From Deltaproteobacteria bacterium (lineage in GTDB: Bacteria > Desulfobacterota > Syntrophia > Syntrophales > UBA2210), in NCBI GenBank assembly GCA_016930775.1, contig JAFGGB010000009.1:1-32846 (forward strand): 32,846 bases of DNA, in the 5' to 3' direction. A model generated the notes under the pieces. That model was not told the origin of the DNA. It did not search any database and saw only the letters and a program-made list of their open reading frames with translations. The position numbers were made by a program, and so were the translations under genes. This document shows positions 13,063 to 32,846 of the stretch, piece by piece. Position 1 is the stretch's first letter; each line of letters starts with the position of its first letter.

Positions 13063-15495
<2,433 letters not shown>

Positions 15496-15502
<7 letters not shown>

Positions 15503-16146
15503 GTTCCATCCTTTCCGTCCCAGGAACAGAATTCTCTCAGAAACCTCAATCCGCATCTCCCGCTCTTCTCGGGATGGAACTGCGTCGCGATAACATTGCC
15601 CCTGCCGATGACCGATGGAAAGGTTATTCCATACTCCGTGCGGGCTACCACGGCATCGTCGTTGCGGGGTTGCGGATAGTAGGAATGAACGAAATAAAAC
15701 TGAGACCGGGGATCCACAGACCTGAAAAGTGGGTGATCGCGGCAGACCTTCAGGTTGTTCCAGCCCATCTCGGGAACTTTCAACGGTCCTTCGGGAAATC
15801 TAAGGGCGCCTCCGGGAATTATGTCAAGGCAGTCCGTGCGGTCGTCTTCTTCGCTGTAACTCAATATAATCTGGGCGCCCAGGCAAATGCCGAGAAAGGG
15901 GACGCCTCGACGAACGATTTCCGATATGACGCCTGCCAGACCGGAATTTGCGATACTCTCCATGGCCGACCGGGCCGCTCCGACGCCGGGGAAAATAACC
16001 CGTTCCGCAGCCCGCATTTCCACCGGATCGGCGGTTATACGTGCCGGCAGGCCAAGATGGTCAAGGGCACGCTTCACCGATCTCAGATTTCCCGCCTTGT
16101 AATCGATTATGGCGATCATTCCTTCATATCGCTTTCGGTCCGTCAC
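15496..16146 (-). CDS. hisH: Imidazole glycerol phosphate synthase glutaminase subunit HisH
   Basis: 216 residues from the GTG at 16146 (GGAG just upstream). The ATG at 16119 gives the family-typical start [11 protein letters not shown] and is the main alternative. A class I glutamine amidotransferase that feeds ammonia to HisF. The nucleophile is in FLGICLGAQ, and the His/Glu pair is in [21 protein letters not shown] and PEMGWNNL are HisH-specific. It follows kdsB by about 9 bases and overlaps hisF, so it is coupled to both. Confidence 0.93.
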
Positions 16147-16155
16147 TGTCTCCGC

Positions 16156-16902
16156 TCAATCGCCGCATCCCTGAACGATATCGCATACCCGGGCCAGTTC
16201 TTCCGGAGAATCAACCTCCACGGAATCATGGTCGGTCTCGGCGACCATGATCCGATATCCGTGTTCCAGGGCCCTGAGCATCTCAAGAGACTCTCGATGC
16301 TCCAGATAACCTGTTTCAAGCCGCGCAAAGACATCGAGAAACCACCGGCGATAAGCATAAATGCCGTGATGTTTGAAATACGCAGTTTCTATGCCCTTGT
16401 CCCGTACAAAAGGAATAGTGGCTCTTGAAAAATAGAGAGCCTCTCCCTTCGCGGTAAAAACCGCTTTAACCGCGTGAGGATGAGTTATCTCCTCCGATCG
16501 TTGAATCCTGAAGACCAGGGTTGCCATCGGCAGCGTTCGATCTTTTAGAAGCGGCTGTATCACCTCGTCAATATGAATAGGGGTGAAGAGCGGCTGATCG
16601 CCCTGAACGTTGACAACGATATCGTCATCGTCGAGTCCGCAGATCCCGGCGGCCTCGGCGATGCGATCTGTCCCGGAGCGATGGGAGGATGCCGTCATGA
16701 CAGCCCGGCCTCCGAAGCGCCTCACGGCATCGGCGATGCGTTCATCATCCGTTGCAACTGCTGCGAAAAAAAGGCTTCCAGCCCTGACGACCCGCTCGTA
16801 AACATGCTGGATCATGGGTTTCCCGCAGATATCGGCAAGAGGCTTCCCCTGGAAGCGCGACGATGAATATCGAGCCGGTATGAAGCAGACTATTTTCCCC
16901 AT
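16156..16902 (-). CDS. kdsB: 3-deoxy-manno-octulosonate (or Kdo8N) cytidylyltransferase KdsB
   Basis: 248 residues. It activates Kdo-type sugars with CTP to CMP-sugars for lipid A inner-core synthesis. The motifs are the N-terminal nucleotide-binding segment CFIPARYSSSRFQGKPLADI, then ATDDERI, SSHRSGTDRIAEA, VVNVQGDQPL and the family C-terminal EVDSPEEL. An AAGGGATAG Shine-Dalgarno-like stretch precedes the ATG at 16902. It lies directly downstream of kdnB-kdnA-like genes, as in the Shewanella Kdo8N locus, so its natural substrate may be Kdo8N rather than Kdo. It is also four genes from pyrG, which makes its cosubstrate CTP. Confidence 0.93.
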   Translation of the reverse strand: MGKIVCFIPARYSSSRFQGKPLADICGKPMIQHVYERVVRAGSLFFAAVATDDERIADAVRRFGGRAVMTASSHRSGTDRIAEAAGICGLDDDDIVVNVQGDQPLFTPIHIDEVIQPLLKDRTLPMATLVFRIQRSEEITHPHAVKAVFTAKGEALYFSRATIPFVRDKGIETAYFKHHGIYAYRRWFLDVFARLETGYLEHRESLEMLRALEHGYRIMVAETDHDSVEVDSPEELARVCDIVQGCGD

Positions 16903-16940
16903 TGACTATCCCTTTGTTCTTCCGTCGCCGCCCCAGAAAC

Positions 16941-18143
16941 TCACAGAACCGCAGAAGCTTTCCTGACGGCGCCGGCGATTTTCTCGAATTGTTCGTCGGT
17001 CATCTTCACGGGAACGCCCGTAAAGAGAGTCCGTCCGAGAATGTCGTCGGCATAAGGAATCATGTCGGCCGTCACCTTCCAGCGATCTTTGAAAACACTG
17101 CTGCTGAAGGGGTATTGTTTTGAATTGACCGTGGCCTTTGACAGGAAATGCTCCCAGTTCAGCACATAATGCCAGGCGTTGTCCTTGAAGAGCGTCGTGT
17201 CCAGGCCATGAGGCGACGCAGCCTGCTGGAACCTCTTGGCCTCGGCATAGCCCGGAAACGTGAAGGCCAGAAAGGTTGCCGTGTCGCCCTGGGGATCAAC
17301 CATGCCGCGGAAGGCGATTCCTTCGATCTCCCGAAGAAGGGCCTTGATCCGCGCCTTATTTGCACGCTGTGCATTGATAATGTCGTCGATCTTTCTCAGC
17401 TGCGCCAGGCCGATGGCGCCTTGCAGTTCTCCCATGCGGTAGTTGAAACCTATGAGATCGTGTTTCTCCAGAGCCCTCGGAAGGCTCGGATCGTGAACGT
17501 GCCCCTGGTCATGGTATTGATCGGCTCTGAGGTAGAGGCTTTCGTCGTCGGTGACGACCATTCCACCCTCGCCGGTAGTGATCGTTTTAACGAAATCGAA
17601 ACTGAAGGCGCCCATATCTCCGAATGATCCGACCTTGCGTCCGCCCAAAGTCCCGCCGCAACATTGAGCTGCATCCTCAAGGACAAGCAGTTTGCGCTTC
17701 CGGGCCACTTCGATGATTCGCTGAATGCGGGCTGGGGCGCCGCACATATGGACGGGGATAATAGCCTTCGTTCTCGGCGACAGGCACTGTTCTATCTTTT
17801 CGGGATCGAGATTGAAAGTATCGTCGATATCGGCAACCACCGGCAAGGCGCCCACTTCAAGAACCGCCGCATAGGTTGCAACGAACGTGAAGGCCGGAAC
17901 GATAACCTCGTCTCCCGGACCGACGTCCAGCGCTTCCAGGGCTGTTTTCAGGGATGAAGAACCGTTGGCGACGCCGAGGGCGCGCCGCGTGCCGCAGAAA
18001 ACGGCAAAGGCCTTTTCAAATTCCTTGACCTTAAACACTCCGTTACGCTGTTGATCGAATCCGTATCTCGTGAGGACGCCCCGCTCCATGACCTCCATAA
18101 CTTCCTGAAGTTCCTCGCGTCCTATAACTTCTCTTCCAGGCAT
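16941..18143 (-). CDS. kdnA: DegT/DnrJ/EryC1-family aminotransferase, probable Kdo8N aminotransferase KdnA
   Basis: 400 residues, with GGGAGGAA upstream of the ATG at 18143. A PLP-dependent sugar aminotransferase of fold type I. The PLP-binding Asp is in LVLEDAAQCCGG (D157), and the Schiff-base Lys is K186 in FSFDFVKTITTGEGG. The SFDFVKTIT context, with Asp-Phe-Val before Lys instead of His, is how I recall KdnA from Shewanella. KdnA transfers an amino group to C8 of the keto form of Kdo produced by KdnB. Its gene lies between an iron-type alcohol dehydrogenase and kdsB, in the same order and direction as the known locus. The family is certain; the KdnA assignment rests on context and motif memory. 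Confidence 0.75.
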   Translation of the reverse strand: MPGREVIGREELQEVMEVMERGVLTRYGFDQQRNGVFKVKEFEKAFAVFCGTRRALGVANGSSSLKTALEALDVGPGDEVIVPAFTFVATYAAVLEVGALPVVADIDDTFNLDPEKIEQCLSPRTKAIIPVHMCGAPARIQRIIEVARKRKLLVLEDAAQCCGGTLGGRKVGSFGDMGAFSFDFVKTITTGEGGMVVTDDESLYLRADQYHDQGHVHDPSLPRALEKHDLIGFNYRMGELQGAIGLAQLRKIDDIINAQRANKARIKALLREIEGIAFRGMVDPQGDTATFLAFTFPGYAEAKRFQQAASPHGLDTTLFKDNAWHYVLNWEHFLSKATVNSKQYPFSSSVFKDRWKVTADMIPYADDILGRTLFTGVPVKMTDEQFEKIAGAVRKASAVL

Positions 18144-18167
18144 GATATTCCTCCCTCAGTCGTAGTC

Positions 18168-19325
18168 TTAGAAAGCATCCCGGTAGATCTCGACAGCCTC
18201 TTTCGGCGTGATTTTCCGGGGGTTGTTTTCCAGCGGCCTCGCCACCGTCATTGCAATCCCGGCCAGTTCCTCAAAATCCTCTTCCAGAACGCCCACATCG
18301 GCAAGGGTCGAAAGGATGCCGCAGTCTTCAATGAGAATCCCCACGGCCTCGACGGCCATTTCAGCCTGCTCGCGGAGAGACAGGCCGTCGCCAACCTCGC
18401 CCATGGCATCGGCCACTATGGCGAATTTATCCACGGCGCCGGGCAGGTTGTAACGCATCACCGCCGGGAGAAGAATCGTGTTTGCCAGACCGTGAGGCAC
18501 GCCGTATTTTCCGCCCAAGGGGTAGGATAGCGAATGAACGGCCGTGACGCCTGCGTTCGCGAGACCCAGACCTGCATAGAGACTTCCCAGCAATTGCGCC
18601 TCTCGGGCATCTAGATTCTTGCCTTCGTGAACACAGGTCCTGAGATTTTCGGCGATGAGACCGATAGCCTCGAGAGACAGAAGTTCACTCATGGGGTTCG
18701 AGTTTATAGAGGTAAAGGACTCGATGGCGTGACAAAGAGCATCGAGCCCTGTCGCTGCCGTTACGTCAGGGGGCGCCGTGAGTGTCAAACAGGGATCGAG
18801 AAGCGCTATTTCGGGATACAGAAAGGGACTGTTCATGCCCTGCTTCTTTTTCAAGTCTTTTCTGACAAACACCGACGTGAAGGTAACTTCGCTGCCCGTT
18901 CCCGCCGTTGTCGGCACCATGATCTTCGGCAATCCCGGCGCCGGTATCTGATTGAGTCCGAGGTACTCAACCGATTTACCGCCGTTTGTCGCTACAACGG
19001 CTATGGCCTTTGCCATGTCCATGGCGCTGCCGCCTCCTATTCCTACAACAATATCGCATTTTTCCTTCCGCGCCCGGCGGGCGCCACCGTCGACGGATTC
19101 AAGAAAAGGTTCCGGCCGGAAATCGGAAAATAGAACAGCGTGCAATCCGACAGCGGAAAGCACTCTTTCAATGTCCTTGGCGATTCCTGCCGACTCGAGA
19201 CCCGGGTCGACGACGACGAAGGGACGGGCGCCCTTCAACTCTTTCAGACATTCTCCAAGACGTTCGAAAGACCCTCTTCCGAAAAGAATCTTCCGGGCGC
19301 CCATAAAAGAAAATATTTTATTCAT
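18168..19325 (-). CDS. kdnB: Iron-type (group III) alcohol dehydrogenase, probable Kdo 8-dehydrogenase KdnB
   Basis: 385 residues, with GAAGGAG upstream of the ATG at 19325. Fe-ADH family. The NAD-binding region is IVVGIGGGSAMDMAKAIAV, then PTTAGTGSEVTFTSVF. The metal ligands are the Asp in EIALLDP and His in GLDALCHAIESFTS, HSLSYPLGG and YGVPHGLANT. In the Kdo8N pathway KdnB oxidises the C8 hydroxyl of Kdo before transamination by KdnA. Here it stands 24 bases upstream of kdnA and two genes from kdsB, supporting this role. A different substrate alcohol cannot be excluded from the sequence alone. Confidence 0.75.
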   Translation of the reverse strand: MNKIFSFMGARKILFGRGSFERLGECLKELKGARPFVVVDPGLESAGIAKDIERVLSAVGLHAVLFSDFRPEPFLESVDGGARRARKEKCDIVVGIGGGSAMDMAKAIAVVATNGGKSVEYLGLNQIPAPGLPKIMVPTTAGTGSEVTFTSVFVRKDLKKKQGMNSPFLYPEIALLDPCLTLTAPPDVTAATGLDALCHAIESFTSINSNPMSELLSLEAIGLIAENLRTCVHEGKNLDAREAQLLGSLYAGLGLANAGVTAVHSLSYPLGGKYGVPHGLANTILLPAVMRYNLPGAVDKFAIVADAMGEVGDGLSLREQAEMAVEAVGILIEDCGILSTLADVGVLEEDFEELAGIAMTVARPLENNPRKITPKEAVEIYRDAF

Positions 19326-19405
19326 TTAAAACTCCTTCGCATCTAAACAATTAATAATCCATGACGACGCAAAATCGTCACGCAATTTCGAAGACTCCAG
19401 GCACA

Positions 19406-22400
19406 TTATGCCTTTTGCCTGTTCGCCGTTCCCTCCAGAATGCGCCCGGCAATCCGATCGACCGATTCTCCCAAGAGGTAAGCGGGGGGCAGTTCTTCCA
19501 GATAACGGTCCTCCCACTGCAGATTGTATTCGTTTACCAGGTTTCTCAAGGCATTCCATTTGTCGCCCAGAATTGCCCTGGCAGTTTCGCCATCGAAGCG
19601 ATCCCGGAAGTTAACGTGAACAAGGAGAATATGGGCAATATGGCAGTCCCGGCCCCTCAGGGGAATGATCACGATAGGACGGTTGTCCGACCGGCCAAGA
19701 CCGGCATAGACGTCGCCGGACTCGATAATCGACCTTTTCGTCCCGCTCAGGATCTTCGATGTATCGGCGCGGGAGTCCATGGCCGCGGCAATTCCTTCCT
19801 TTCTTAAAATAGCAATAGTCGTTGCCTCCGCGGGCATGCCCTCGTCGTTGAGATCTGCGATCCTGTAGAGGGTGTAGCCCTGGACCTCCAGGAGGGCGCC
19901 CTGAAGTCTTCGAATGGCCAACCCGTCTTTGACGGTGAGATTTTCCAGGGAAAAATCAAGGTCTTTCATGAGATCAAAAAGAATCCCTTCGAGCTGTTCT
20001 TCCTTTCTGCTCGTTCCCACCGTTACTGTCTTGGCCTGGTGCCGTATTGCATCAACGGGACGGGTCAGTTCATCCACAGCCTTCCCTAGGATCAGATCGA
20101 GCATATCCAGGGGAGAGGAAGAAATCCTCCGTCCCTCGAACTCCCGCCAGAAATCTTCCAGGGGCAGTTTCCCCGTGGCATAGCGCAAAAGAATCACCAG
20201 ATCCGTAGCTGCATCGACACTCATGTTTGCAAATTTGCCATGGTTCTTTCGCTCCCTGAAACATTCCTCGAAATCACCAACCTCGCGATGCAGATCCGTA
20301 TCGGCGATAACATCGAAGAGGGAGAAATTCTTCTCATCGCAGGCTGCCAGGCGGTTTGCCAGCACGGTCCTGAACAGGCGGAACATCTCCGCCTCTTCGC
20401 TGATGCTGCAGGCGGCGTAGTAGCCCACAAGATGACCCGCCAGGGTGTTTACGATAACATAACCCGGAAATCCCGTAGGAGGAACGGCTATAACCGCATC
20501 AGAAACATCATCAAATCTGCGTTCTCCCTCTTCCGCAATAACGACTACAGAGGCGGCATGGGCCTTGAATATGGCTGCATCTTTCACTATGTCTTCTGTT
20601 ACGGTTTCTGGATTTCCGGCAGCGCATACGAGTATGAGAGGTTCCGACGAGAGATCGATGTGCTTCTTGTCTTCGATGACGTCGGAAGAAACGGTTTTGT
20701 AGCAGAGTTCGCTGAGCTTTATCCTTATCTCGTCGGAAGCGATCTTGTTAGGGCCGCTCCCTACTACGGCCCAGTAGATTTTACGCTTCACAAGATCCCA
20801 GACCGATGCCTTAATGCTCTCGCGCCTTTCGATTACCCGATTCATCACCGAGGGCAAGCCATCGAGAACCCTGATCGTTTCGGCGATTGCGCCATCTTTC
20901 ATAGTTCCGAGACGTTTCGCAAAAAAGAGTGAGAGAATCGAGCCCGCCACAAGCTGGGAATAGAAGGCTTTCGTCGATGCCACGGACATCTCGATATCAC
21001 GGCCGTCGCTTGTATAGAAGACACCGTCCACCTTGTGTGTAATATCGGACTGCCTCCTGTTTACGATGGCGATGAGGTGGGCGCCTCGACCTTTAGCCAT
21101 TGCCACCGCCCTGTTCGTATCCGTAGTGGTGCCCGATTGGGTGACGGCAATGACGATTGTGTCGCTCATATCATTGCTGATGAAAAAGCCGCTGAGGTCA
21201 GTAGCTTTCCGCGCCTCTACCTTAATGGGAAGCCCGCCGATGCAGTGAGTCAGAACCTCGGCAATTCCGGCGCCGGCCACGGCAGCCGTTCCTTGCCCGA
21301 CAACGTAGATGGTCTTTATCTGCCCGGCCTTGAGGGCCTTGAGAAGTCGCGGACTTATTATATCATCCCCGATGTTGAAAACCACCTCCTGGGCGCCTGA
21401 ATGGTCCTGAATAATGCGGCATTTACCCAGAAGCGTCTTTTTCACCGACAATGGCGCCTCGGTTATTTCCTTCAGAAGAAAATGGGGATAACCCTTGCGG
21501 TCGATGTCCCGGGTGGTGATTTCGGCCCGTTTGATATCATCCTTCCCCAGCTTCCAGAAGGAACCGTCGTAGGAATAGGCCTTTATGTCTTCCAAGGCAT
21601 CGTTTGCATCTTCATCGAGAACGACTATTTGGCCTTTCGTTGCAGGATCTCCGGCAACCCGCTCTCGTTCACCGTCCATTTTGATAAACCAGCGGGTCCG
21701 TTCCACCAGACCGTAGACCTCGGAGGAAAAAATATACTGATCTTCACAGAGTCCCACATAGAGGGCTTGGCCGCTTCCCCGCTGAGCCAGGAAAACCTTT
21801 CCGGGCTCAAGGTTGCTCTGCATGGCAATGGCGTGGGATCCCTCAAAATCGTTGAGGGCGCGACGGAAGGATTCAAGGAGATCGCAACCTTCATTGAGGT
21901 ATCTCTCTATCTGCAGGGGAATTATCTTGGTGTCCGTCGTCACGCGGTGATTGATGGTTCCATAGTCGGCGCGCTCCAGCGCCTTTCTAAGGGGAAGGTA
22001 ATTATCCACATCGCCATTCAGCGATACGTTGATGTGCCATTCGCCTGCGCCATATGCAGGATAGCTCCGTGAAATCTCCCGTTGCACCGTTGCATCGGCG
22101 GTTTCCGTCGGCAGGGTGAAGTTATTGATTGGATGGCAATTCTCTTCTATTATCGAACCGACGGAGGCCCACCGTGTATGTCCTATGTAGACTTCCGAAG
22201 CGTCGTCGGATTGGAGAGCGCAACTGAGTATGGCGTCGGATTGTATGCGCTCTCGAAGATACAAGCCATTCTCGCCGAGCCTGCCCGTTACGGCTGCCTT
22301 TTTGTAAAAAAAGGAAAGACATGGTCCGCCGCCGCTTGTCTCTCCCGTCTGAATAGTCCCATCCATAAGGTCTTGTGGAATCGACCGGCCGAGAAACTCT

Positions 22401-23167
22401 CCGTCAAGTTTCTTCTCCTTCAGTACATCTTTGAACCGCCGGAAAGGCTCTTGGCCTTCAAAAGACAGTGTAACCTGTATGCCCAAGGAATCTCTCCCTC
22501 GGACCTCCAGACGGTCCAGTGCGTTTATAAGGAAGTTGATCTTGCGGTAGCGCAGTCTGGTCGCGTGGCTTAACAGTTCACAACATCCTGCGCAGGCGAT
22601 CTTCGAACTCTCCTCCGCGGCAGCTAGAATATCCTGGTCAAGGGACCATGCCGCGTCTTTAATTCGCTCCAGGAAACTCGTCACTTGCTCCAAAAGAGAG
22701 GTGGACATGCCCGGCGCCTCGCGCTCGATAGCCGATTCCTCTTCAGCCGCGATGCCCTTCAGGACCGTTGCAGTTTTTTCAAGAATCTTCAAAGCCTCGT
22801 TGTCGCCAAGAATGTCGATGAAGGTTTCATCGCTCCGATATCGATTGATAGCGCTCTCAATGGCATCAAGAGTCAGCCTTCCGCCAAGATAATCAACCGA
22901 TTTGATTGATCCGTTCAGAACATGCCGAATTCCTCTTCGTCTGGCTCGTTCAACGAGGGAAGGCAAATCGACGGGCAGTTCGGGGGTTTTCTTCGGCCGC
23001 TTGATCGTTATGATTCCCGCAAGGCCGCAACAGAGGATTCGAGTGCAGAGAGGAAAGATTATGATGGCCTTGGAATCTATGCCTTCGGGATCACGACCCA
23101 GGTACAGAAACCAGCTCCCAAGCCATCCCAGAATAAGCTTGAATAGACATCCCGCACGTTTCTCCAT
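19406..23167 (-). CDS. Extended GlmS-like protein: class II amidotransferase with insertion, two SIS domains, unique C-terminus
   Basis: 1253 residues from the ATG at 23167, preceded by GAAGGTG; the frame is open further upstream but without family-like sequence. Canonical GlmS has ~610 residues. The class II amidotransferase nucleophile motif CGLAGI is at residue 47, preceded by a hydrophobic leader. An insertion of about 170 residues follows before RGRDSLG (223-229), HTRWAS (330-335), LNGDVDNY and TTDT (410-413), so the glutaminase residues are present. The linker KEITEAP leads into SIS domain 1 (TQSGTTTDT 676-684, VASTKAF 729-735) and SIS domain 2 (about 795-920). The usual GlmS C-tail (PRNLAKSV) is absent; instead some 320 residues of unrecognised sequence follow. 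It probably aminates a sugar phosphate with glutamine, but not necessarily fructose-6-phosphate. It is preceded by glutamate synthase genes and followed by kdnB. Confidence 0.8.
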   Translation of the reverse strand: MEKRAGCLFKLILGWLGSWFLYLGRDPEGIDSKAIIIFPLCTRILCCGLAGIITIKRPKKTPELPVDLPSLVERARRRGIRHVLNGSIKSVDYLGGRLTLDAIESAINRYRSDETFIDILGDNEALKILEKTATVLKGIAAEEESAIEREAPGMSTSLLEQVTSFLERIKDAAWSLDQDILAAAEESSKIACAGCCELLSHATRLRYRKINFLINALDRLEVRGRDSLGIQVTLSFEGQEPFRRFKDVLKEKKLDGEFLGRSIPQDLMDGTIQTGETSGGGPCLSFFYKKAAVTGRLGENGLYLRERIQSDAILSCALQSDDASEVYIGHTRWASVGSIIEENCHPINNFTLPTETADATVQREISRSYPAYGAGEWHINVSLNGDVDNYLPLRKALERADYGTINHRVTTDTKIIPLQIERYLNEGCDLLESFRRALNDFEGSHAIAMQSNLEPGKVFLAQRGSGQALYVGLCEDQYIFSSEVYGLVERTRWFIKMDGERERVAGDPATKGQIVVLDEDANDALEDIKAYSYDGSFWKLGKDDIKRAEITTRDIDRKGYPHFLLKEITEAPLSVKKTLLGKCRIIQDHSGAQEVVFNIGDDIISPRLLKALKAGQIKTIYVVGQGTAAVAGAGIAEVLTHCIGGLPIKVEARKATDLSGFFISNDMSDTIVIAVTQSGTTTDTNRAVAMAKGRGAHLIAIVNRRQSDITHKVDGVFYTSDGRDIEMSVASTKAFYSQLVAGSILSLFFAKRLGTMKDGAIAETIRVLDGLPSVMNRVIERRESIKASVWDLVKRKIYWAVVGSGPNKIASDEIRIKLSELCYKTVSSDVIEDKKHIDLSSEPLILVCAAGNPETVTEDIVKDAAIFKAHAASVVVIAEEGERRFDDVSDAVIAVPPTGFPGYVIVNTLAGHLVGYYAACSISEEAEMFRLFRTVLANRLAACDEKNFSLFDVIADTDLHREVGDFEECFRERKNHGKFANMSVDAATDLVILLRYATGKLPLEDFWREFEGRRISSSPLDMLDLILGKAVDELTRPVDAIRHQAKTVTVGTSRKEEQLEGILFDLMKDLDFSLENLTVKDGLAIRRLQGALLEVQGYTLYRIADLNDEGMPAEATTIAILRKEGIAAAMDSRADTSKILSGTKRSIIESGDVYAGLGRSDNRPIVIIPLRGRDCHIAHILLVHVNFRDRFDGETARAILGDKWNALRNLVNEYNLQWEDRYLEELPPAYLLGESVDRIAGRILEGTANRQKA

Positions 23168-23280
23168 GATTATTGCACCTTCGGAACCAGATGGACGAGC
23201 CGACATCCCTTCGATGACCCGGAAAAAAACATGGCGAACTGTACACCAAACGGGACGATATTTAAAGAGTGAATTTAAGG

Positions 23281-23302
23281 GAGGCGCCACTGTCGACGCC
23301 TC
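23281..23302 (-). other. Intercistronic hairpin after the GXGXG-GltD gene
   Basis: GAGGCG (23281-23286) and CGCCTC (23297-23302) form a 6-bp stem with a 10-base loop, located 33-54 bases after the fusion-gene stop. There is no U-run, so it is unlikely to terminate by itself; possibly an RNA processing or stability element. Confidence 0.3.
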
Positions 23303-23334
23303 AAAGTTTCGGTTGAATGCGCAGGTTATGTCCG

Positions 23335-25506
23335 CTAATTCCCAGATGTCGCTCCAGGGAGATCTTCCGTCTGAATAACGCCGCGGGGACAGACGCCAAC
23401 ACAGGTGTAACAGAGGGTGCACCGTTCTGAATCGACGGTAAATATCTCACCATTGCGGCTGAGGGCTTCCTGGGGACAGTTTTCCACGCAGCGGTCGCAA
23501 AATATGCAGGTCCCGCAACTTATACAGCGGTCTGTCTCTTCTTCTTCACCGCCGAAGTATGCGAATCTTATCCGACGCTTGCCCACAGGATTTTTCTCGG
23601 GGTAGAAAAACTTTCCGCCTCTGAGAAAACCGTCAATTTCCATGGCGGCAAGCCTGCCCGAACCTACGGCATCGGTCGCCAAGCCCTGTTTTACAATATC
23701 GCCGCACCCGAAGACCTTGGGATCATTGCTCTGAAAAGACCTTTCGGCCGTCTTGATGTACCCTCTGTCATCAACGTAGACCGATTCAGGCAGATAGGAG
23801 GCATCGGGAACCTCTCCGATGCTGAAAATAACGACATCTGCCTTCAAGGGGCTTCCGTCGGTCAGATGAATCTTTTTTTCATCGAGAGAGGAAACGAATT
23901 TCGGCCAGAGGATTTTAGTTCCCCGTTTTTTCGCCGTCTCCAGTTCTTTTCCGAAGGCCAAGGGCTTCTGAATATCCAGGGCTGTTACCTTCGATGCCCC
24001 GAGACGCCAGGCCTCGCAAGCGATATCCATCCCCACATTTCCGGCCCCGATTATGACAACTTCCTTTTTTGACACGTCCATAGGGCGACCGTCGTTGATA
24101 TCGGTAAGAAAAGAAAGTCCCGGGAGAATCCGTTCGCCTCCGGGATAAGAAATTTTTTTCGTCAATTGCGCTCCCGTGGCGACGACCACGGCATCGCTCT
24201 CATCGTAAATGAAGGCCATTTTCTTGCTGTCGACAGCAGTTCCTTCGAAGAATTCAATGGGAAGCGTGCGAATCCTGCGGATATCCTTTTCGAGGATCTC
24301 GTCGGGCAGTCGATCTTTCGGTATGGCTCTTCGGATCTTGCCGCCGATATTGTCAGTTTTTTCGTAAACCCTGACACGGTAGCCCCTGCGGGCAAGTTGC
24401 CAGGCAGCCGAGAGTCCTGCCGGTCCGGCCCCGATTATCGATATCAGTTCCTTATGTTTTTTCCGTGCCACGACCGGTGCATAAGAGGGATAGTACGTCC
24501 TGGCAAGTTCCTGAATCGCCACAGGGCCGTCAAGGGCGTTCCTGCTGCAGGCTTCCATGCAGGGGGCAGGACACACGGCGCCGCAGACGGACATGCGAAA
24601 AGGAGTATATTCATCCATGAGAAGCTGCGCTTCCTTCAACTGGCCGTCTTTGATCAAATTAAAAAAAACGGGCGTCGGTATCCCCGTCGGACAGGCAAAA
24701 GCGCAGGGAGGTGTAAGATTGAAGTGGCGCGGCTGGGTCGTTTTGAGGTTCATGGCCGGCGAATAGAGATTTCCGAAGGGACGATGTCCTTTCTTCGTAA
24801 TCTTCGTGAAATCGGCGCTGGAGATTCTTCCCAGATTACATCCGAAATCGGCTGCATACTCGTCGAGGGTTCTTTTCAAGAAGCTCGCGTCGGCATCATC
24901 CATGGGCGCGATAACCGCCCCGATGCCGAGCTGGTGAACTTCCACGGCGCCTCTGACATAGATGGCGCCTCCATGAATGCCTGTTCCGAGGCCGCTTCCC
25001 ACGGGAGAACCGGCTCTCCCGTCAAGGTTAAGGACGATGATTCTTCCCCCGGCCATATACTCTCCGCAGTAATCTTTAGCGGTGCCACCGATGACTATTA
25101 CAGGGATTTTTTCCAGATACTCCTTCATGTGGATTCCTGCACGGTATTCCACATCGCCCTTTATGAAAATCTTCCCGCCCCGCATTGAATGGCCGGGTAT
25201 TTCGCCGACTTTCCCGTGAACGATAATTTTTCCATCGTTCATCGTATTGCCTACCCCGTCTTGGGCATTCCCGTAAACTATGAGCTTGGTTCCATTCATG
25301 AAAGCGCCCAGATCCTGTCCGGGGGTTCCATGGATTTCAATGGCTCTTCTGTCGCTGAGTCCGCAGCCTATATATCTCTGCCCCAGAACATTGCGAAGAA
25401 CGACGGCCTGTTGATTCCTTGAAAAACAGGCCCTGATCTGTCTGTTCAATGCCTTGTAATACAGACCTTTGGCGTTGATTGTTGCCAGGGAATTACGCTC
25501 CGGCAT
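23335..25506 (-). CDS. Glutamate synthase GXGXG domain fused to GltD-like oxidoreductase and two [4Fe-4S] clusters
   Basis: 723 residues. Residues about 40-210 form the GXGXG beta-helix that normally ends GltB (GTPGQDLGAFMNGTKLIVYGNAQDGVGN, GGKIFIKGD). Residues about 265-650 are a GltD-like small subunit: an Fe-S Cys region (CAFACPTGIPTP, VCGAVCPAPCMEACSRN), the FAD motif IIGAGPAGLSAAWQLARRG, the NAD(P)H motif VVIIGAGNVGMD and the family's closing GCGDIV. The C-terminus is a bacterial two-cluster ferredoxin (CISCGTCIFCDRCVENCP, CTLCYTCVGVCP). It supplies electrons to the FMN subunit encoded next to it. The start overlaps the FMN gene end by 14 bases. In standard bacterial GOGAT the GXGXG domain belongs to the large subunit, so this is a rearranged architecture. 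Confidence 0.9.
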   Translation of the reverse strand: MPERNSLATINAKGLYYKALNRQIRACFSRNQQAVVLRNVLGQRYIGCGLSDRRAIEIHGTPGQDLGAFMNGTKLIVYGNAQDGVGNTMNDGKIIVHGKVGEIPGHSMRGGKIFIKGDVEYRAGIHMKEYLEKIPVIVIGGTAKDYCGEYMAGGRIIVLNLDGRAGSPVGSGLGTGIHGGAIYVRGAVEVHQLGIGAVIAPMDDADASFLKRTLDEYAADFGCNLGRISSADFTKITKKGHRPFGNLYSPAMNLKTTQPRHFNLTPPCAFACPTGIPTPVFFNLIKDGQLKEAQLLMDEYTPFRMSVCGAVCPAPCMEACSRNALDGPVAIQELARTYYPSYAPVVARKKHKELISIIGAGPAGLSAAWQLARRGYRVRVYEKTDNIGGKIRRAIPKDRLPDEILEKDIRRIRTLPIEFFEGTAVDSKKMAFIYDESDAVVVATGAQLTKKISYPGGERILPGLSFLTDINDGRPMDVSKKEVVIIGAGNVGMDIACEAWRLGASKVTALDIQKPLAFGKELETAKKRGTKILWPKFVSSLDEKKIHLTDGSPLKADVVIFSIGEVPDASYLPESVYVDDRGYIKTAERSFQSNDPKVFGCGDIVKQGLATDAVGSGRLAAMEIDGFLRGGKFFYPEKNPVGKRRIRFAYFGGEEEETDRCISCGTCIFCDRCVENCPQEALSRNGEIFTVDSERCTLCYTCVGVCPRGVIQTEDLPGATSGN

Positions 25507-27007
25507 GTTTTATCCCCAATACACGCAATTCTTCTTCGTTCAAACCAACAGCCCGCAACCGATCGCGATTGCTCCGAAGGGCCTCTATTGCACTGATTCC
25601 CATGGAGCCCATCAACTCCTTGATCTCCTCGCCCCAGGCATGGAGGAGGTTTTTCAGGGCCTCAGCCGCTTCATCCACGTCGATCCGTTCGGCCAAGCCT
25701 GGGCGGTTCGTCGTGATGCCATAGGCGCACTTGCCTGAAAAACAGCGTTGGCACATCCCGCAGCCCAGCGACACGAGAACCGGCGAGGCCACATAGACGG
25801 CATCCGCTCCCAGACAAATGGCCTTGAGGACATCGGAAGAACACTGGATGCCGCCGGATGCAATGAGAGTTACCGTATCTCTGATGCCTTCCTCCCGAAG
25901 TCTCTGGTCCGCGCTCGCGACGGCGAGTTCGATCGGTATTCCCGTGTTCTGCCTGATCTGGAGCGGCGTTGCTCCCGTACCTCCACGGAATCCATCGATA
26001 GCAATAAGATCGGCCCCGGCCCGGGCGATCCCGCTTACAATGGGCGCCACATTATGGACAGCCGCTATCTTCACCGATACGGGCACGCGATACTCCGTCG
26101 ATTCTTTGATCGCATAGATAAGCTGGCGAAGGTCCTCTATCGAATAGATGTCATGATGGGGAGCCGGTGAAAGGGCATCTGTGCCCATGGGAATCATCCG
26201 CGTTCGCGACACAGCCTCGGAAACCTTTTCTCCAGGCAGATGTCCTCCGATTCCCGGTTTAGCGCCCTGACCTATTTTTATTTCAACGGCTGCGGCAGCA
26301 TTGAGATAGTCTTCGCTGACGCCGAACCGGCCTGAGGCGACCTGAACGATCGTATTGCCCCCGTATTGCCGGAGCTTCTCATGAAAACCTCCTTCTCCCG
26401 TATTCCAGAAGGTTCCTACCGCCCTGGCGGCCAGGGCCTCCGCCTCCTGGACCCGCAGATTAACGGCGCCGAAACTCATGGCGCCGAACATAATGGGCAC
26501 TTCAAGTTTCAACTGAGGCCCCACGGGTTCTCCAACGCCCAAAGGTTTTCTGCCTAGGTAGCGCCGTATCTCCATAGGTTCCCTCAGGGGATCGATCGAA
26601 GGATTTGTCACCTGGCAGGCATCGAACATGAGGTGATCGAAATAGCGGCGCTGCGGTCCCGTGGCGCCCGTGCCGACGAGGAGCACTCCGCCGGCGGACC
26701 GCGCCTGTCGCCATATGTTGCCCATCTTCTCCGCCGTCCAGTAGCCGTGGGAGCTTACCATGGGATGAGAGACGATATGAATGGCCGTGTGGGGACACAT
26801 TTTGACGCAACGCTGGCATGCGTTGCAGGCGCTGAGGTTCGCCCAGGGCCGGTAGTGAACGGCGCCGCCGGTTCCCTTGACGGGCGTAAGAGAAATCTCC
26901 CCGAAGGAACACTCATGTACACAGATGGTGCATCCGTTCTCGTAATCGCATCGCCCGAGATCGAAGGTCGGATGAAAGGCAGGAATTGTCTTCCAATTCT
27001 CTATCAT
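25493..27007 (-). CDS. Glutamate synthase FMN/Fe-S subunit (archaeal-type GltB central domain)
   Basis: 504 residues. It reduces the iminoglutarate formed from 2-oxoglutarate and ammonia. An N-terminal ferredoxin-like region contains CDYENGCTICVHECSF and CNACQRCVKMCPHTAI. The FMN-binding TIM barrel has PIMFGAMSFGAVN, NTGEGGFHE, KIGQGAKPGIGGHLPGEKV, HHDIYSIEDLRQLI, IDGFRGGTGATP and IASGGIQCSSDVLKA. The cluster-binding loop is GCGMCQRCFSGKCAYGITT. The ATG at 27007 overlaps the amidotransferase stop as ATGA, indicating translational coupling. The glutaminase and GXGXG parts of GltB are encoded by neighbours, so a holoenzyme needs several chains. Confidence 0.92.
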   Translation of the reverse strand: MIENWKTIPAFHPTFDLGRCDYENGCTICVHECSFGEISLTPVKGTGGAVHYRPWANLSACNACQRCVKMCPHTAIHIVSHPMVSSHGYWTAEKMGNIWRQARSAGGVLLVGTGATGPQRRYFDHLMFDACQVTNPSIDPLREPMEIRRYLGRKPLGVGEPVGPQLKLEVPIMFGAMSFGAVNLRVQEAEALAARAVGTFWNTGEGGFHEKLRQYGGNTIVQVASGRFGVSEDYLNAAAAVEIKIGQGAKPGIGGHLPGEKVSEAVSRTRMIPMGTDALSPAPHHDIYSIEDLRQLIYAIKESTEYRVPVSVKIAAVHNVAPIVSGIARAGADLIAIDGFRGGTGATPLQIRQNTGIPIELAVASADQRLREEGIRDTVTLIASGGIQCSSDVLKAICLGADAVYVASPVLVSLGCGMCQRCFSGKCAYGITTNRPGLAERIDVDEAAEALKNLLHAWGEEIKELMGSMGISAIEALRSNRDRLRAVGLNEEELRVLGIKHAGA

Positions 27008-28077
27008 TTCTTCCGTCTACCCTCCCCCGTAGCTTCTTCCTGCAAATCGACAATAACCGGCTCGCCTCCCCGGGGAGACCAGATATCATCGACCCTGGCA
27101 GAAAGCAGCCTGATGCTGCATTCCTCCGACGAGGCGTAATATGTATTGTCCTTCCGGGCGCATACAACGGGCCTCAGCTTATTCCGGTCATTCAGAATAA
27201 TGGCGCCGCCGTCATGAGTCAGGACGATCCCGAAAGGACCGTTCACAATGGCAGATCCGTAAATCTGCCTGAGCGTTCGCTTTGTTACGCTCTTTTCCCT
27301 GTCGATCTCCTCCCAGAGCGAAGGCGCCATGATATAGCAGGCATCCTTCGTGGAAAGCCCGTCCTGTCTCGTCAGTTTATCGTAAATATAAGATATAACT
27401 TCCGTATCGGTTTTAAGAAGGCAGAAATAACCAAACATTTCGAGCCAGCGGACGTTTGTCCCATAACTTGTTATTTCTCCGTTGTGAACAACCGCTTTGT
27501 CGAGAATCGTGAAGGGGTGAGCTCCTCCCCACCACCCCGGCGTGTTAGTAGGAAATCTATTGTGGGCGGTCCATAGATAGCCGCGGTAATCCTCTATTCT
27601 GAAGTAATCGGCAATATCTTCGGGAAAACCCATACCTTTGAAAACGCCCATATTTTTGCCGGACGATACAACAAATACGTCCGGCATTTTATTAAGGGCC
27701 ATCACCGTCTCGACGACATAGCCCTCCTCCGACTGGTGAGGCTGCATATATTCTTCTATCGGTCGCAAAAAATATCGCCGGAAATAGGGTCCCCTGGGCA
27801 GCCTGTCGTGGGGATACACGGGGATCTCCTCGGAACGCACGATCAGCATGCGCTGCTTCAGGTATGTTTCGGCTGACTGAATGGCCGGACTGTTGCGGTC
27901 GCCCTCATACATAATATGAAAGGCATAATCGTTCCTATGCTCTGGATAGCACCCGTACACGGCAAATCCTCCGCCCAGACCGTTTCCTCTGTCCCGCTGT
28001 ATGCGGATGGCTTCACGGATCAATCCTCCGTCAATCAGTCTCCGATCGGTATTGATTATGCCCACAATGCCGCACAT
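27004..28077 (-). CDS. Class II glutamine amidotransferase subunit of glutamate synthase
   Basis: 357 residues. The N-terminal nucleophile follows the initiator Met (MCGIVGIINTDRR). Other active-site elements are WTAHNRFPTNTPGWWGGAHPF (the Arg-containing loop), VVHNGEITSYGTN and LLKTDTEVISY. It hydrolyses glutamine and passes ammonia to the FMN subunit. Its length and sequence match the stand-alone GltB amidotransferase found with archaeal-type split GOGAT. It starts 35 bases after the ferredoxin gene and overlaps the next gene by 4 bases. Confidence 0.92.
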   Translation of the reverse strand: MCGIVGIINTDRRLIDGGLIREAIRIQRDRGNGLGGGFAVYGCYPEHRNDYAFHIMYEGDRNSPAIQSAETYLKQRMLIVRSEEIPVYPHDRLPRGPYFRRYFLRPIEEYMQPHQSEEGYVVETVMALNKMPDVFVVSSGKNMGVFKGMGFPEDIADYFRIEDYRGYLWTAHNRFPTNTPGWWGGAHPFTILDKAVVHNGEITSYGTNVRWLEMFGYFCLLKTDTEVISYIYDKLTRQDGLSTKDACYIMAPSLWEEIDREKSVTKRTLRQIYGSAIVNGPFGIVLTHDGGAIILNDRNKLRPVVCARKDNTYYASSEECSIRLLSARVDDIWSPRGGEPVIVDLQEEATGEGRRKK

Positions 28078-28112
28078 TACCGGTTCCCATCCTTTTTTTC
28101 GGTGATTTCAGC

Positions 28113-28418
28113 CTAACCGGCCGTTCGAATGGCGAAATCTGGACAGATCATGGCGCAGAGGCCGCAACCTGAACAGGGCTTGCCGCCCTCTGCTGGCGCG
28201 AACTCAATTACACGATAGTCACGGGCGTTCAATGCCTTGGAAACGCTGATGGCCTTCCTGGGACATATCTCTATGCAGAGAAAACATCCTTTGCAAAGAT
28301 CGGGTTCAAAGATGATCCTTTCATGGACGGTACGGACCGCCGGCGCCGGCGCCGTCGCCGCAGAGTGTTCATTAAGCGATTGTCGGAGCTTATGAGATGC
28401 AAGGTTATGTACCGTCAT
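28113..28418 (-). CDS. Ferredoxin with two [4Fe-4S] clusters
   Basis: 101 residues. Two binding motifs are seen: CKGCFLCIEICPRKAI and CSGCGLCAMICPDFAI, each followed by a distant partner Cys-Pro as in 2[4Fe-4S] ferredoxins. The N-terminal 35 residues are an Ala/Pro-rich extension with no known motif. It lies between the degenerate amidotransferase and the glutamate synthase genes and most likely carries electrons for glutamate synthase or links it to another donor (e.g. oxidoreductases of 2-oxoacids), which is an inference. Confidence 0.9.
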   Translation of the reverse strand: MTVHNLASHKLRQSLNEHSAATAPAPAVRTVHERIIFEPDLCKGCFLCIEICPRKAISVSKALNARDYRVIEFAPAEGGKPCSGCGLCAMICPDFAIRTAG

Positions 28419-28467
28419 TGTCCCTGTTCATTCCTCCCGTTGCAGTGTCGTGTTGTTCGCCCGTTCT

Positions 28468-28482
28468 ACCCGGCGCCCGGGT
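28468..28482 (-). other. Short GC-rich intercistronic hairpin upstream of the ferredoxin gene
   Basis: ACCCGG, a CGC loop and CCGGGT form a perfect 6-bp stem with a 3-base loop in the 91-base gap between the degenerate amidotransferase stop and the ferredoxin start. No U-run follows. Confidence 0.35.
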
Positions 28483-28509
28483 TAACTCAAACCCTCAATT
28501 CCTGATATT

Positions 28510-29265
28510 TCAGGCAATCTTCCAGTTATTGAATTCAGCCTGCCCGATCAGCCATCGTTCCGAACCCATTTCGCTGTCAAAGGCCTTTGCCCTCATATCG
28601 GCAAGCCACAGGAAATTGAGATAAATGCCGCGAGTCTGCATGTAGAAGCTTTCCGTAAGATCCGACAGCGTTTTCCCGTCGAAAAGAACTTCGGACTTGC
28701 TGCATTCCCCCGTAGTTCTGCCGGAGAGACCCTCTATGGAAAAGTGAAGACCATAGGCATTGTGATACCTGAAAGCCTGGTTTGGCATGGACTTGGACGT
28801 GGCAAGCAATGTGGCGCCGCAGGGCAACTCAAAGGATTCGCTCTCGTTATTGGGGAACCACATTGATCGCGGGAGCCCGTAAAAGAGAATGTCGCGCTTG
28901 CCGGTATTCGTGAGCAGGACGTTATCCCAGTCAGGACGAGTTCCCTCAAGGGCAGAAATTTCGGCTGAACAGGCCTGTGCAATCAACCGCGCGCCAAGGG
29001 ACGATCCAAGAACGGGAATATCGGCGCCGATTGCCTTTTTTAGAAAGGCCCTCTCGGTTTTTATGAAGGGGCAGCGGTCATCATCGGCGGCATTCATCAG
29101 ACCGCCAAGGCTGATTATCCCATCGAAATCGTGGATTCTCTCTGGAAGCTGATCTCCCTTGAAAAGATTAACGGTCCTCAGGTAGGCGCCCCCGGATATC
29201 AGCGTTTGCCAGAAGATTTCAGAACCGCTCGTCTCGCCGTGGACAATCACGAGAACGTTTTTCAT
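28510..29265 (-). CDS. Class I glutamine-amidotransferase-like protein lacking catalytic residues
   Basis: 251 residues from the ATG at 29265 (AAAGGAGA upstream; the frame runs to 29301 but that start has no Shine-Dalgarno sequence). It resembles the GMP-synthase-like type 1 amidotransferases: GIISLGGLMNAADDDRCPFIKTERAFLKKAI, then IPVLGSSLGARLIAQA, SESFELPCGATLLATS and QAFRYHNAYGLHFSIEG. Where active members have GICLGAQ the nucleophile is Ser89 (GSSLGAR), and where they have QFHPE/QFHLE the sequence is HFSIE, so the His is Ser176; the Glu remains. Both changes are clear codons (TCC at 29001-28999 and TCC at 28740-28738). The protein is therefore unlikely to hydrolyse glutamine. It may sense or bind glutamine or assist a neighbour. 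It stands between glnA and the ferredoxin. Confidence 0.8.
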   Translation of the reverse strand: MKNVLVIVHGETSGSEIFWQTLISGGAYLRTVNLFKGDQLPERIHDFDGIISLGGLMNAADDDRCPFIKTERAFLKKAIGADIPVLGSSLGARLIAQACSAEISALEGTRPDWDNVLLTNTGKRDILFYGLPRSMWFPNNESESFELPCGATLLATSKSMPNQAFRYHNAYGLHFSIEGLSGRTTGECSKSEVLFDGKTLSDLTESFYMQTRGIYLNFLWLADMRAKAFDSEMGSERWLIGQAEFNNWKIA

Positions 29266-29313
29266 GGCATCGTCTCCTTTCCAGATCTGGACCGCCTTCA
29301 TTCCGTCGGCTTG

Positions 29314-29342
29314 AAGGACGGCCGGTCAATCCGGCCGCCCTT
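29314..29342 (-). other. Strong GC-rich hairpin between glnA and the amidotransferase-like gene
   Basis: AAGGACGGCCGG (29314-29325), a TCAAT loop and CCGGCCGCCCTT (29331-29342) form a 12-bp stem with one wobble, 10 to 40 bases past the glnA stop. A U-run does not follow. It may act as an RNA stabiliser or partial transcription stop setting glnA output above the downstream genes. Confidence 0.5.
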
Positions 29343-29352
29343 CATCCGTCCG

Positions 29353-30690
29353 CTACAGAATGGGCAGGTACTTCTCCAACTCGTAGTTGCTGATGTGAAT
29401 CCTGTACTTATCCCACTCGATCTTCTTGTTCGATATGAACTTCCCAAAAATATGATCGCCGAGGGCCTCCCGGACGAGATCGCTGCCTTCCGTCAATTCG
29501 ATCGCCTCTCCCAAGCTGCCCGGCAGTGACGTGATGCCTCTTGCCTTGCGCTCCGCGTCGTTCATTTCAAAGATGTCTTCTTCAATCGGATCGGGCAGCG
29601 CCAGTTTCTGCTCCATACCCTTCATTCCGGCCGCCAACATGACGGCAAAGGCCAGGTAGGGATTGCAGGCAGGATCGGGGCAGCGGAACTCCATACGCGT
29701 AGCCTTCGATTTTCCTGGCTTGTACATGGGAACCCTCACGAGGGCCGAGCGGTTCCTACGCGCCCAGGAAACGTAGACCGGCGCCTCGTAGCCGGGGACA
29801 AGACGCTTGTATGAGTTGACCCACTGGGCGACAATACAGGACATTTCCTTGGCGTACTTCAGAATGCCTGCAATATAGCTTTTGCCTTCAACCGAAAGAA
29901 AATACTTGTCATTGGGGTCGAAAAAAACATTGTCGTCACCCGCGAATAGAGACTGATGAACATGCATGCCGCTGCCGTTCTCGCCGAAGAGAGGCTTGGG
30001 CATGAAGGTTGCGTAAACCCCGTACTTCTGGGCGATTTCCTTCACGGTAAGCCGGTAGGTCATCGCCGCATCGGCCATAGCCAGCGCCTCTCGGTACCGC
30101 AGATCGATCTCATGCTGACTGGGAGCGACTTCATGATGACTGTACTCGACGGGAATGCCCATGGATTCGAGTGCGATAATCGTATCCCGCCTTAGGTCGC
30201 TTGCCACATCGAGGGGCGTCAAATCAAAGTATCCACCCTTGTCCAGGATCTGCGGCTTGCCCTCGGAACTCTTGAAATAGAAAAATTCCAGTTCGGGACC
30301 CACATAAAACTTATAACCTTTATCGGCGGCCTTCTTGAGGTTGCGTTTCAGTGCATATCGGGGATCGCCTTCATATGGCGTTCCGTCGGGATTCTGAATG
30401 TCGCAGAACATCCGTGCGACGTTCATTCCCTCGCTGGCCCGCCAGGGCAAAAGGACAAAGGTATTTGGGTCCGGCTTGGCGATCATGTCGCTCTCTTCGA
30501 TCCGTGCGAATCCTTCGATCGAGGACCCGTCGAAACCCATTCCTTCGTCAAGAGCGCCTTCCAGTTCTTCCGGCGATATGGCAAAGCTCTTCAACATGCC
30601 GAGAACATCTGTGAACCACAGACGGATAAAACGCACGTTATTCTCTTTTACTTGTTTGAGGACATTTTCTTTCATTGCATCGATTGTCAT
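29353..30690 (-). CDS. glnA: Glutamine synthetase type I (GSI-alpha-like)
   Basis: 445 residues from the ATG at 30690, with AAAGGGGA upstream; the frame extends to 30795 but that part overlaps the promoter. It makes glutamine from glutamate, ammonia and ATP. Motifs are MGFDGSSIEGFARIEESDM, KFYVGPELEFFYF, HHEVAPSQHEIDLRY, FGENGSGMHVHQSL, KRLVPGYEAPVYVSWARRNRSALVRVP and EFRCPDPACNPYLAFAV. Its length near 445 and lack of the adenylylation-type insert place it with GSI-alpha. The Arg in EGFARIEESDM corresponds to the feedback-inhibition Arg62 of Bacillus GSI-alpha. Regulation is likely through a sigma54 promoter upstream at 30779-30794 and the enhancer-binding protein encoded just beyond. Confidence 0.97.
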   Translation of the reverse strand: MTIDAMKENVLKQVKENNVRFIRLWFTDVLGMLKSFAISPEELEGALDEGMGFDGSSIEGFARIEESDMIAKPDPNTFVLLPWRASEGMNVARMFCDIQNPDGTPYEGDPRYALKRNLKKAADKGYKFYVGPELEFFYFKSSEGKPQILDKGGYFDLTPLDVASDLRRDTIIALESMGIPVEYSHHEVAPSQHEIDLRYREALAMADAAMTYRLTVKEIAQKYGVYATFMPKPLFGENGSGMHVHQSLFAGDDNVFFDPNDKYFLSVEGKSYIAGILKYAKEMSCIVAQWVNSYKRLVPGYEAPVYVSWARRNRSALVRVPMYKPGKSKATRMEFRCPDPACNPYLAFAVMLAAGMKGMEQKLALPDPIEEDIFEMNDAERKARGITSLPGSLGEAIELTEGSDLVREALGDHIFGKFISNKKIEWDKYRIHISNYELEKYLPIL

Positions 30691-30778
30691 ATAGTTCCCC
30701 TTTCTCATTAAGTCTTCATATGAGGAGGCCGCTCTAATTCCAAACCTCCCTTGATTTCCCTTCCGTGATGAGCCTGTT

Positions 30779-30794
30779 TGCAACATCGGCGCCA
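30779..30794 (-). promoter_or_regulatory. Sigma54 (RpoN) promoter for glnA
   Basis: The minus strand reads TGGCGCCGATGTTGCA: the -24 GG and -12 GC elements are separated by exactly 10 bases, and TTGCA matches the -12 consensus fully. Only one base of TGGCAC differs (A to G). Transcription would start near 30768, about 78 bases before the glnA ATG. The neighbouring gene encodes a sigma54-dependent activator, which strengthens the call. Confidence 0.8.
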
Positions 30795-30824
30795 CGATAG
30801 CGCACTGTCCTGCAATTAATGAAA

Positions 30825-30894
30825 ATATATCCGTTATTATTGACTATTCTATATCCAAAAAATGACGTATACCGCCCATGTATCGTGGATATAT
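30825..30894. promoter_or_regulatory. Possible enhancer (UAS) region between glnA and the sigma54 activator
   Basis: The AT-rich spacer contains ATATATCC (30825-30832), CTATATCC (30849-30856) and the inverted copy GGATATAT (30887-30894). They lie 31 to 115 bases upstream of the sigma54 promoter, the usual distance for an enhancer-binding protein. This is only a pattern of short repeats, not a known NtrC or NifA consensus site. Confidence 0.35.
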
Positions 30895-30929
30895 TACAAT
30901 ATGGTAGGATTTAACTGCGCTGTCTACCG

Positions 30930-32504: not shown

Positions 32505-32846
32505 ACCCAGCCTCCCGACAAGTTCAGGAAAGGATCCTGATGCAATCACGAACGATGAATGATCCCTATCATACCCTCAAAAAAGGATCAACCTTGCAGA
32601 GGAATTTCAGGGATTGAATCTGCTGGATGAACTGGCGGCATCGACACCCATGATATTATCGACTCTTCCGCCGGGCAGTTGATCGGACCCTGGACAATTC
32701 GTTAATTCCTACCTATATGTCATTACTCGCCATATCATATAACGCAATGGTATGATTTGCTATCATGCAAATTGTCCGTCTTAATGCTTGTATTATCTTA
32801 TATTATAGATACTTATAGCTATTTGTTATTCTGGCACAACATTTGA
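32505..32846. other. Right-edge intergenic region upstream of the sigma54 activator
   Basis: No gene is supported here. The last 150 bases are AT-rich. For the minus strand, TATGAT (about 32567-32572) could be a -10 element for the activator gene. It sits inside an inverted repeat (TGATCC at 32560-32565, GGATCA at 32585-32590), a possible operator. Both are weak and only inferred. Confidence 0.3.

Follow-up and report, generated by a model that had tools for sequence, protein, structure and literature searches.

An oversized GlmS-like protein with a displaced C-tail and added domains as the probable GlcN-6-P synthase of syntrophic bacteria

The window (the whole stretch of 32,846 nucleotides analysed here) encodes a giant GlmS-like protein of 1253 residues on its minus strand (positions 19406-23167; ATG at 23167, stop at 19406), with the same frame running unbroken upstream of the ATG as far as a GTG at 23422. 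This protein is very probably the GlcN-6-P synthase of the window's organism, where it would have displaced the canonical GlmS (probability about 0.8), because no other GlmS was found, the catalytic residues are invariant, the folds are those of GlmS, GlmM is present, and glm genes occur as neighbours. GlcN-6-P is the first amino sugar required for the cell wall and outer membrane, and GlmS, which textbooks describe as an essential enzyme and which serves as a drug target, has a layout that is, to our knowledge, regarded as nearly invariant. A search of the available literature found no paper on GlmS in this bacterial group. If the replacement is true, an essential textbook step is carried out by an unstudied form of the enzyme that is twice as large. 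The assignment also fills an annotation gap, in that the genomes bearing the giant otherwise seem to be without GlmS, and full-length GlmU is missing from them too.

The GlmS-like glutaminase and SIS content described in the earlier note, which was made from the sequence alone, is borne out by Pfam matches to GATase_6/7 (residues 325-487) and SIS (a single match, residues 617-744) and by a match to the NCBIfam glmS model, and GlmS and GFAT rank first in a PDB sequence search. The highest NCBIfam scores, 242 and 224 bits, are against GlmS models, and both fall well below cut-off. Since the score against TIGR01135 (NCBIfam glmS) is 223.9 bits for a curated cut-off of 418.05, the giant is a variant or sister form outside this equivalog as defined. 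The note's overall description also holds, with corrections of detail given below: the protein is GlmS-like and oversized, its amidotransferase domain is split, and its C-terminal domain is novel.

Cys47 of the giant (23027-23029, on the minus strand like all other features of this gene) corresponds to catalytic Cys1 in GlmS, is invariant in 51/51 members and begins the motif CGLAGI. A fold model of residues 16-560 (pLDDT 87, pTM 0.86) superposes on the glutaminase domain of E. coli GlmS (1xff) with a Z-score of 28.1 over 238 of 239 residues, and the structural alignment starts exactly at Cys47, opposite chain residue 1. The domain is split by an insert, residues 58-205 (22553-22996), which is modelled as helices; the remaining glutaminase domain, residues 206-541 (21545-22552), carries RGRDSLG (223-229), HTRWAS (330-335), NGD (384-386) and Asp412. 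An insertion between CGLAGI and RGRDSLG had been noticed earlier and put at about 170 extra residues; the insertion stands and its size is to be lowered to about 150, the two motifs being 176 residues apart versus about 25 in E. coli GlmS. A second, smaller expansion of about 60 residues lies between RGRDSLG and HTRWAS.

The double-SIS isomerase region, recognised by Pfam SIS and the residue map, occupies residues 556-920 (20408-21502) and includes K817, E820 and H836. The canonical C-tail (PRNLAKSV), previously reported as missing, is present at residues 1036-1054, RPVDAIRHQAKTVTVGTSR (20006-20062), and escaped the earlier reader because it lies more than 100 residues further on. Residues 1036-1051 of this displaced tail, RPVDAIRHQAKTVTVG, compare with TDVDQPRNLAKSVTVE in canonical GlmS; A1045 and K1046, the latter equivalent to Lys603, are invariant in 51/51 members. 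In all 51 the displaced site is the top-scoring place for the canonical tail, and the motif score by itself, matched in 28 of 3000 shuffles, is of moderate significance. For residues 541-1253 the fold model (pLDDT 86, pTM 0.68) shows the C-tail as flexible and coming after a long helix. Its fold-search alignments to GlmS and GFAT, which spanned model residues 12-513, reach a Z-score of about 41 over about 360 residues and end at model residue 513, i.e. residue 1053 of the giant, opposite residue 608, the last one of E. coli GlmS. Residues 921-1035 (20063-20407) are therefore read as a helical insertion between SIS2 and the tail, and residues 1057-1253 a domain added after it. A global profile alignment pushed the canonical tail next to SIS2, and the displaced position rests on motif, invariance and fold. 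What had been described as some 320 unrecognised residues is thus really an insertion of about 115 residues, a recognisable tail, and a domain of about 195 residues to which the description still applies.

This last domain (19409-19999) is of alpha/beta type, and its strand pattern prompted the conjecture that it may be GAF-like. Searched alone among 395 genomes sampled over the phylum, it turned up in the same 50 as the giant, nearly always within it. Profile searches of Pfam, NCBIfam and PDB with the glutaminase insert, the 921-1035 insertion and the C-terminal 200 or so residues, as the earlier note had suggested for insertion and C-terminus, gave chance-level matches only, and no known family was matched.

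The catalytic residues of GlmS, as given in a review, are Cys1, Glu488, His504 and Lys603 (PMC9272926). Residue mapping was based on a profile alignment of the 51 giants with E. coli GlmS (locus L091, b3729). In the glutaminase domain the equivalents of R73, W74, N98, G99 and D123 are invariant in 51/51 giants, as are those of K485, E488 and H504 in the isomerase domain (K817, E820 and H836); K1046 is invariant at a place structurally equivalent to that of K603. Near the phosphate site, Ser303 is replaced by Ala and Glu351 by Thr in all 51 giants (E. coli GlmS numbering), and Gln or His is found at the position of C300.

Class-II amidotransferases work via the free amino group of an N-terminal Cys, so that the N-terminal extension of the giant, residues 1-46 (23030-23167), is most simply a propeptide. 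Such a leader precedes the Cys in 45/51 members; it is about 41-55 residues long, a Gly and a Phe-Pro in it are conserved, and none of these 45 has an ATG, GTG or TTG codon directly 5' of the Cys. The remaining six (L055 and the divergent L064-L068) are leaderless, with a Met/Val-Cys-Gly start in which the Cys comes directly after the start codon; in L055 an upstream KdnB-like gene stops just before the ATG of the giant. Residues 40-46, the seven preceding Cys47, have a pLDDT below 50 and are the least ordered of that region. Because Cys47 is internal in the primary product of most members, a pro-enzyme is most likely, and we infer that the leader is probably cleaved off.

The giant is present in single copy in the window's genome and has a match in 51 of 60 order-level relatives, most of them full-length, single-copy and 45-62% identical over known and unknown parts alike. 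A search of the 395 phylum genomes with a 24-row profile (A1) found it in 44 at more than 1240 bits, and six more encode a more divergent, shorter version (complete ones of 1137-1170 residues); the architecture is spread over many families of the phylum. A scan with one giant sequence returned only deltaproteobacterial or unclassified proteobacterial records, the named ones mostly Syntrophaceae and other deltaproteobacteria, and none was found in plasmids or viral contigs. No canonical GlmS above the glmS cut-off was found in the window's genome or in any of the 60 order relatives, and the same model reaches its cut-off in 14/14 control genomes. Across the phylum sample the canonical enzyme occurs in 311/395 genomes. 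When the two lists were compared by hand, it was found in one of the 50 giant-bearing genomes (G239) versus 310 of the 345 others (Fisher p 2e-38, a value overstated by the relatedness of the genomes, which are not independent). Four families (f54, f70, f76 and f88) have the canonical enzyme in some members and the giant in others, which suggests displacement of canonical GlmS. Two fairly complete genomes (G021 and G381) show neither form. In a third genome showing neither (G022), this is explained by a contig end, 215 bases past a GlmU-C-like gene, where a sister species (G054) has the giant. A whole order of syntrophic bacteria seems to have replaced ordinary GlmS by the giant form.

Of the other pathway enzymes, GlmM is present in the window's genome (612 bits) and in 56/60 relatives. 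Full-length GlmU was not found in the 60 relatives; the window's genome encodes a GlmU-N-like uridyltransferase of 264 residues and a 415-residue protein with weak GlmU-C similarity. In 18/39 genomes a GlmU-C-like gene is no more than 500 bp from the giant, and in some members of families f52 and f54 the giant, GlmU-C-like and glmM genes adjoin. NagB acting in reverse was considered as a source of GlcN-6-P in the window's genome and rejected, there being no NagB match.

The earlier note had placed the gene between GOGAT and Kdo8N genes, and it does lie between split GOGAT genes (GXGXG and GltD-like, FMN-domain and class-II GATase by Pfam; 23335-28077, minus strand) on one side and a DegT aminotransferase/Fe-ADH pair on the other. 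The Fe-ADH family gene (18168-19325, minus strand), a neighbour of the giant in at least six families, and the DegT/DnrJ aminotransferase gene (16941-18143, minus strand) are presumably KdnB-like and KdnA-like, respectively, the families matched here being Fe-ADH and DegT. In the window the pair comes after the giant and is followed by kdsB, hisH, hisF and pyrG, further members of the same-strand run (13063-16902, minus strand); it also adjoins the giant, in opposite order, in several unrelated families. Glutamine synthetase is encoded at 29353-30795 (minus strand; NCBIfam GlnA above cut-off). In the window's family and in f15 the order is glnA, a class-I GATase gene, three GOGAT genes, pyrG, giant, hisH and hisF, all in one direction, and glnA, GOGAT, pyrG, giant and hisHF are co-directional in many relatives; nearly all of these genes make or use glutamine. 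In the window a GAF/sigma-54 activator gene adjoins glnA; a search 5' of glnA for a sigma-54 promoter pattern found none.

Given its unusual size and extra parts that no Pfam or NCBIfam family describes, the giant might be thought an artefact, either a fusion or an assembly error joining a GlmS fragment to unrelated sequence. However, dozens of genomes have this architecture at a length of about 1250 residues, some of them single-contig assemblies such as G052 and G217, and its retention as a whole in 50 of 395 phylum genomes excludes chance; conservation leaves this explanation with a negligible probability. A glutaminase half that is inactive, with Cys47 never exposed, free ammonia as the nitrogen source and the leader a permanent part of the fold, would agree with the lack of a start codon directly before the Cys in most members, and the fold model does show short strands, of fair confidence, in part of the leader. 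Against this, every glutaminase residue is invariant, the six leaderless members have the Cys right behind the start codon, the residues immediately ahead of Cys47 are predicted to be disordered, as would be expected of a cut site, and the gene lies in a run of genes for making and using glutamine, all of which renders an inactive glutaminase unlikely.

The possibility of a different sugar substrate had also been raised, and a GlmS relative aminating another keto-sugar phosphate, e.g. in the synthesis of lipopolysaccharide or of a Kdo8N-type sugar, could account for the aminotransferase/Fe-ADH neighbours, which occur in either of two orders in the window and several other families, and for the invariant S303A and E351T changes, which leave a little room for such a substrate. 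It would, however, leave these genomes without a source of GlcN-6-P despite their GlmM, and is opposed by the retention of the catalytic residues, including the displaced equivalent of Lys603, by the near mutual exclusion with canonical GlmS (exception, G239), by the absence of another GlmS from the genomes of the order examined, and by the glmM and GlmU-C-like neighbours. The evidence does not support this proposal, which we judge improbable, and the giant is preferably read as a GlcN-6-P synthase. Points that weigh against the synthase reading are the score below the TIGR01135 cut-off, the S303A and E351T changes, the genomes with neither form or with both, and the moderate significance of the tail motif by itself.

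As such a synthase, the giant would hydrolyse glutamine at Cys47 in the glutaminase domain and hand the ammonia on to the double-SIS domain, where fructose-6-phosphate would be converted to GlcN-6-P by Lys817, Glu820, His836 and the C-tail Lys1046, as invariance and fold indicate. The tail would be presented from the end of the long inserted helical segment, and the leader of about 46 residues would be removed ahead of Cys47 in the fashion of PurF and GltB. The helical insert, residues 921-1035 and the C-terminal domain may be modules for assembly or regulation, which is a guess; a regulatory role for the added parts has somewhat less than even odds. Regulation by a nitrogen signal, as suggested earlier, is possible and mildly supported by the gene context, on account of the glutamine gene run and the sigma-54 activator gene beside glnA. 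It is tempting to speculate, tentatively, that this is a pro-enzyme GlcN-6-P synthase whose insert, tail-carrying insertion and C-terminal domain together act as a new control module coupling the supply of glutamine or nitrogen (or UDP-GlcNAc) to envelope synthesis, and that canonical GlmS has given way to it repeatedly across the phylum. In GlmS the C-tail closes the active site and bears the catalytic Lys; the giant indicates that this tail can shift by more than 100 residues and be followed by a new, fused domain, and that a leader is apparently tolerated as well. Whether a GlmS glutaminase needs processing, and how extra domains act on tail closure, thereby become testable.

Among known systems, the giant is closest to GlmS/GFAT (TIGR01135; E. 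coli b3729, 2j6h; human GFAT-1, 6r4e), with which it shares an Ntn glutaminase ahead of a double-SIS isomerase and equivalents of Cys1, R73, W74, N98, G99, D123, K485, E488, H504 and K603. It differs in its length (1253 versus 608 residues), the leader before the Cys, the helical insert of about 150 residues and some 60 more in the glutaminase domain, about 115 residues separating SIS2 from the C-tail, a domain of about 195 residues after the tail, and the S303A and E351T changes. PurF and GltB are class-II amidotransferases with a cleaved leader, and the giant resembles them in that its leader before the catalytic Cys would need removal; its acceptor domain, however, is SIS, whereas theirs are phosphoribosyltransferase and glutamate synthase, respectively, and the Z-scores of its glutaminase domain to PurF (20-23) and GltB (18) are both lower than to GlmS. 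GlcN-6-P deaminases and SIS isomerases of the NagB-II type (8eym, 2cb0) have the same double-SIS fold (Z about 31-32) but no glutaminase, and score 60 bits compared with 242 for the GlmS subfamily model.

The giant GlmS gene lies within a run of genes on the same strand (window 13063-32549) that features glnA, a GATase gene, GOGAT, pyrG, the giant gene itself and hisH/hisF, nearly all of which make or use glutamine. A gene for a GAF/sigma-54 activator adjoins glnA in the window, and the gene order of this glutamine-associated run is kept in relatives.

No full-length GlmU scored over the cut-off among the 60 order relatives. In its place, both these genomes and the genome under study encode two proteins: one is GlmU-N-like and about 265 aa long, the other, of 411-430 aa, has weak similarity to GlmU-C, and a Pfam search with it returned no match. 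In the genome under study the two genes are at loci L096:4263-5054 and L095:4091-5335, and the gene for the 411-430 aa protein is often adjoined by glmM or by the giant gene. In about 20 of the 60 order relatives, glmM is also directly flanked by a gene for a NagB-like protein, typically of 320-365 aa (e.g. loci L093:6263-7219 and L094:3020-3979); no NagB-like gene adjoins glmM in the genome under study.

Across the phylum sample, the giant and canonical GlmS were found together only in genome G239 (locus L063, family f69). Genome G021 (L125), 97% complete, has neither of the two; glmM and a GlmU-C-like gene are present. In genome G094, a second, isolated piece of the giant's C-terminal domain (C41:28433-28621) was detected in a 154-aa frame some 7 kb away from the giant. 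Two sequence subtypes of the giant were noted within family f54, one in G128 (L052) and the other in G161 and G190, with scores of approximately 1390 versus 1750 bits against the same profile, and other members of f54 carry canonical GlmS. The occurrence of both subtypes and of canonical GlmS in a single family hints at horizontal transfer.
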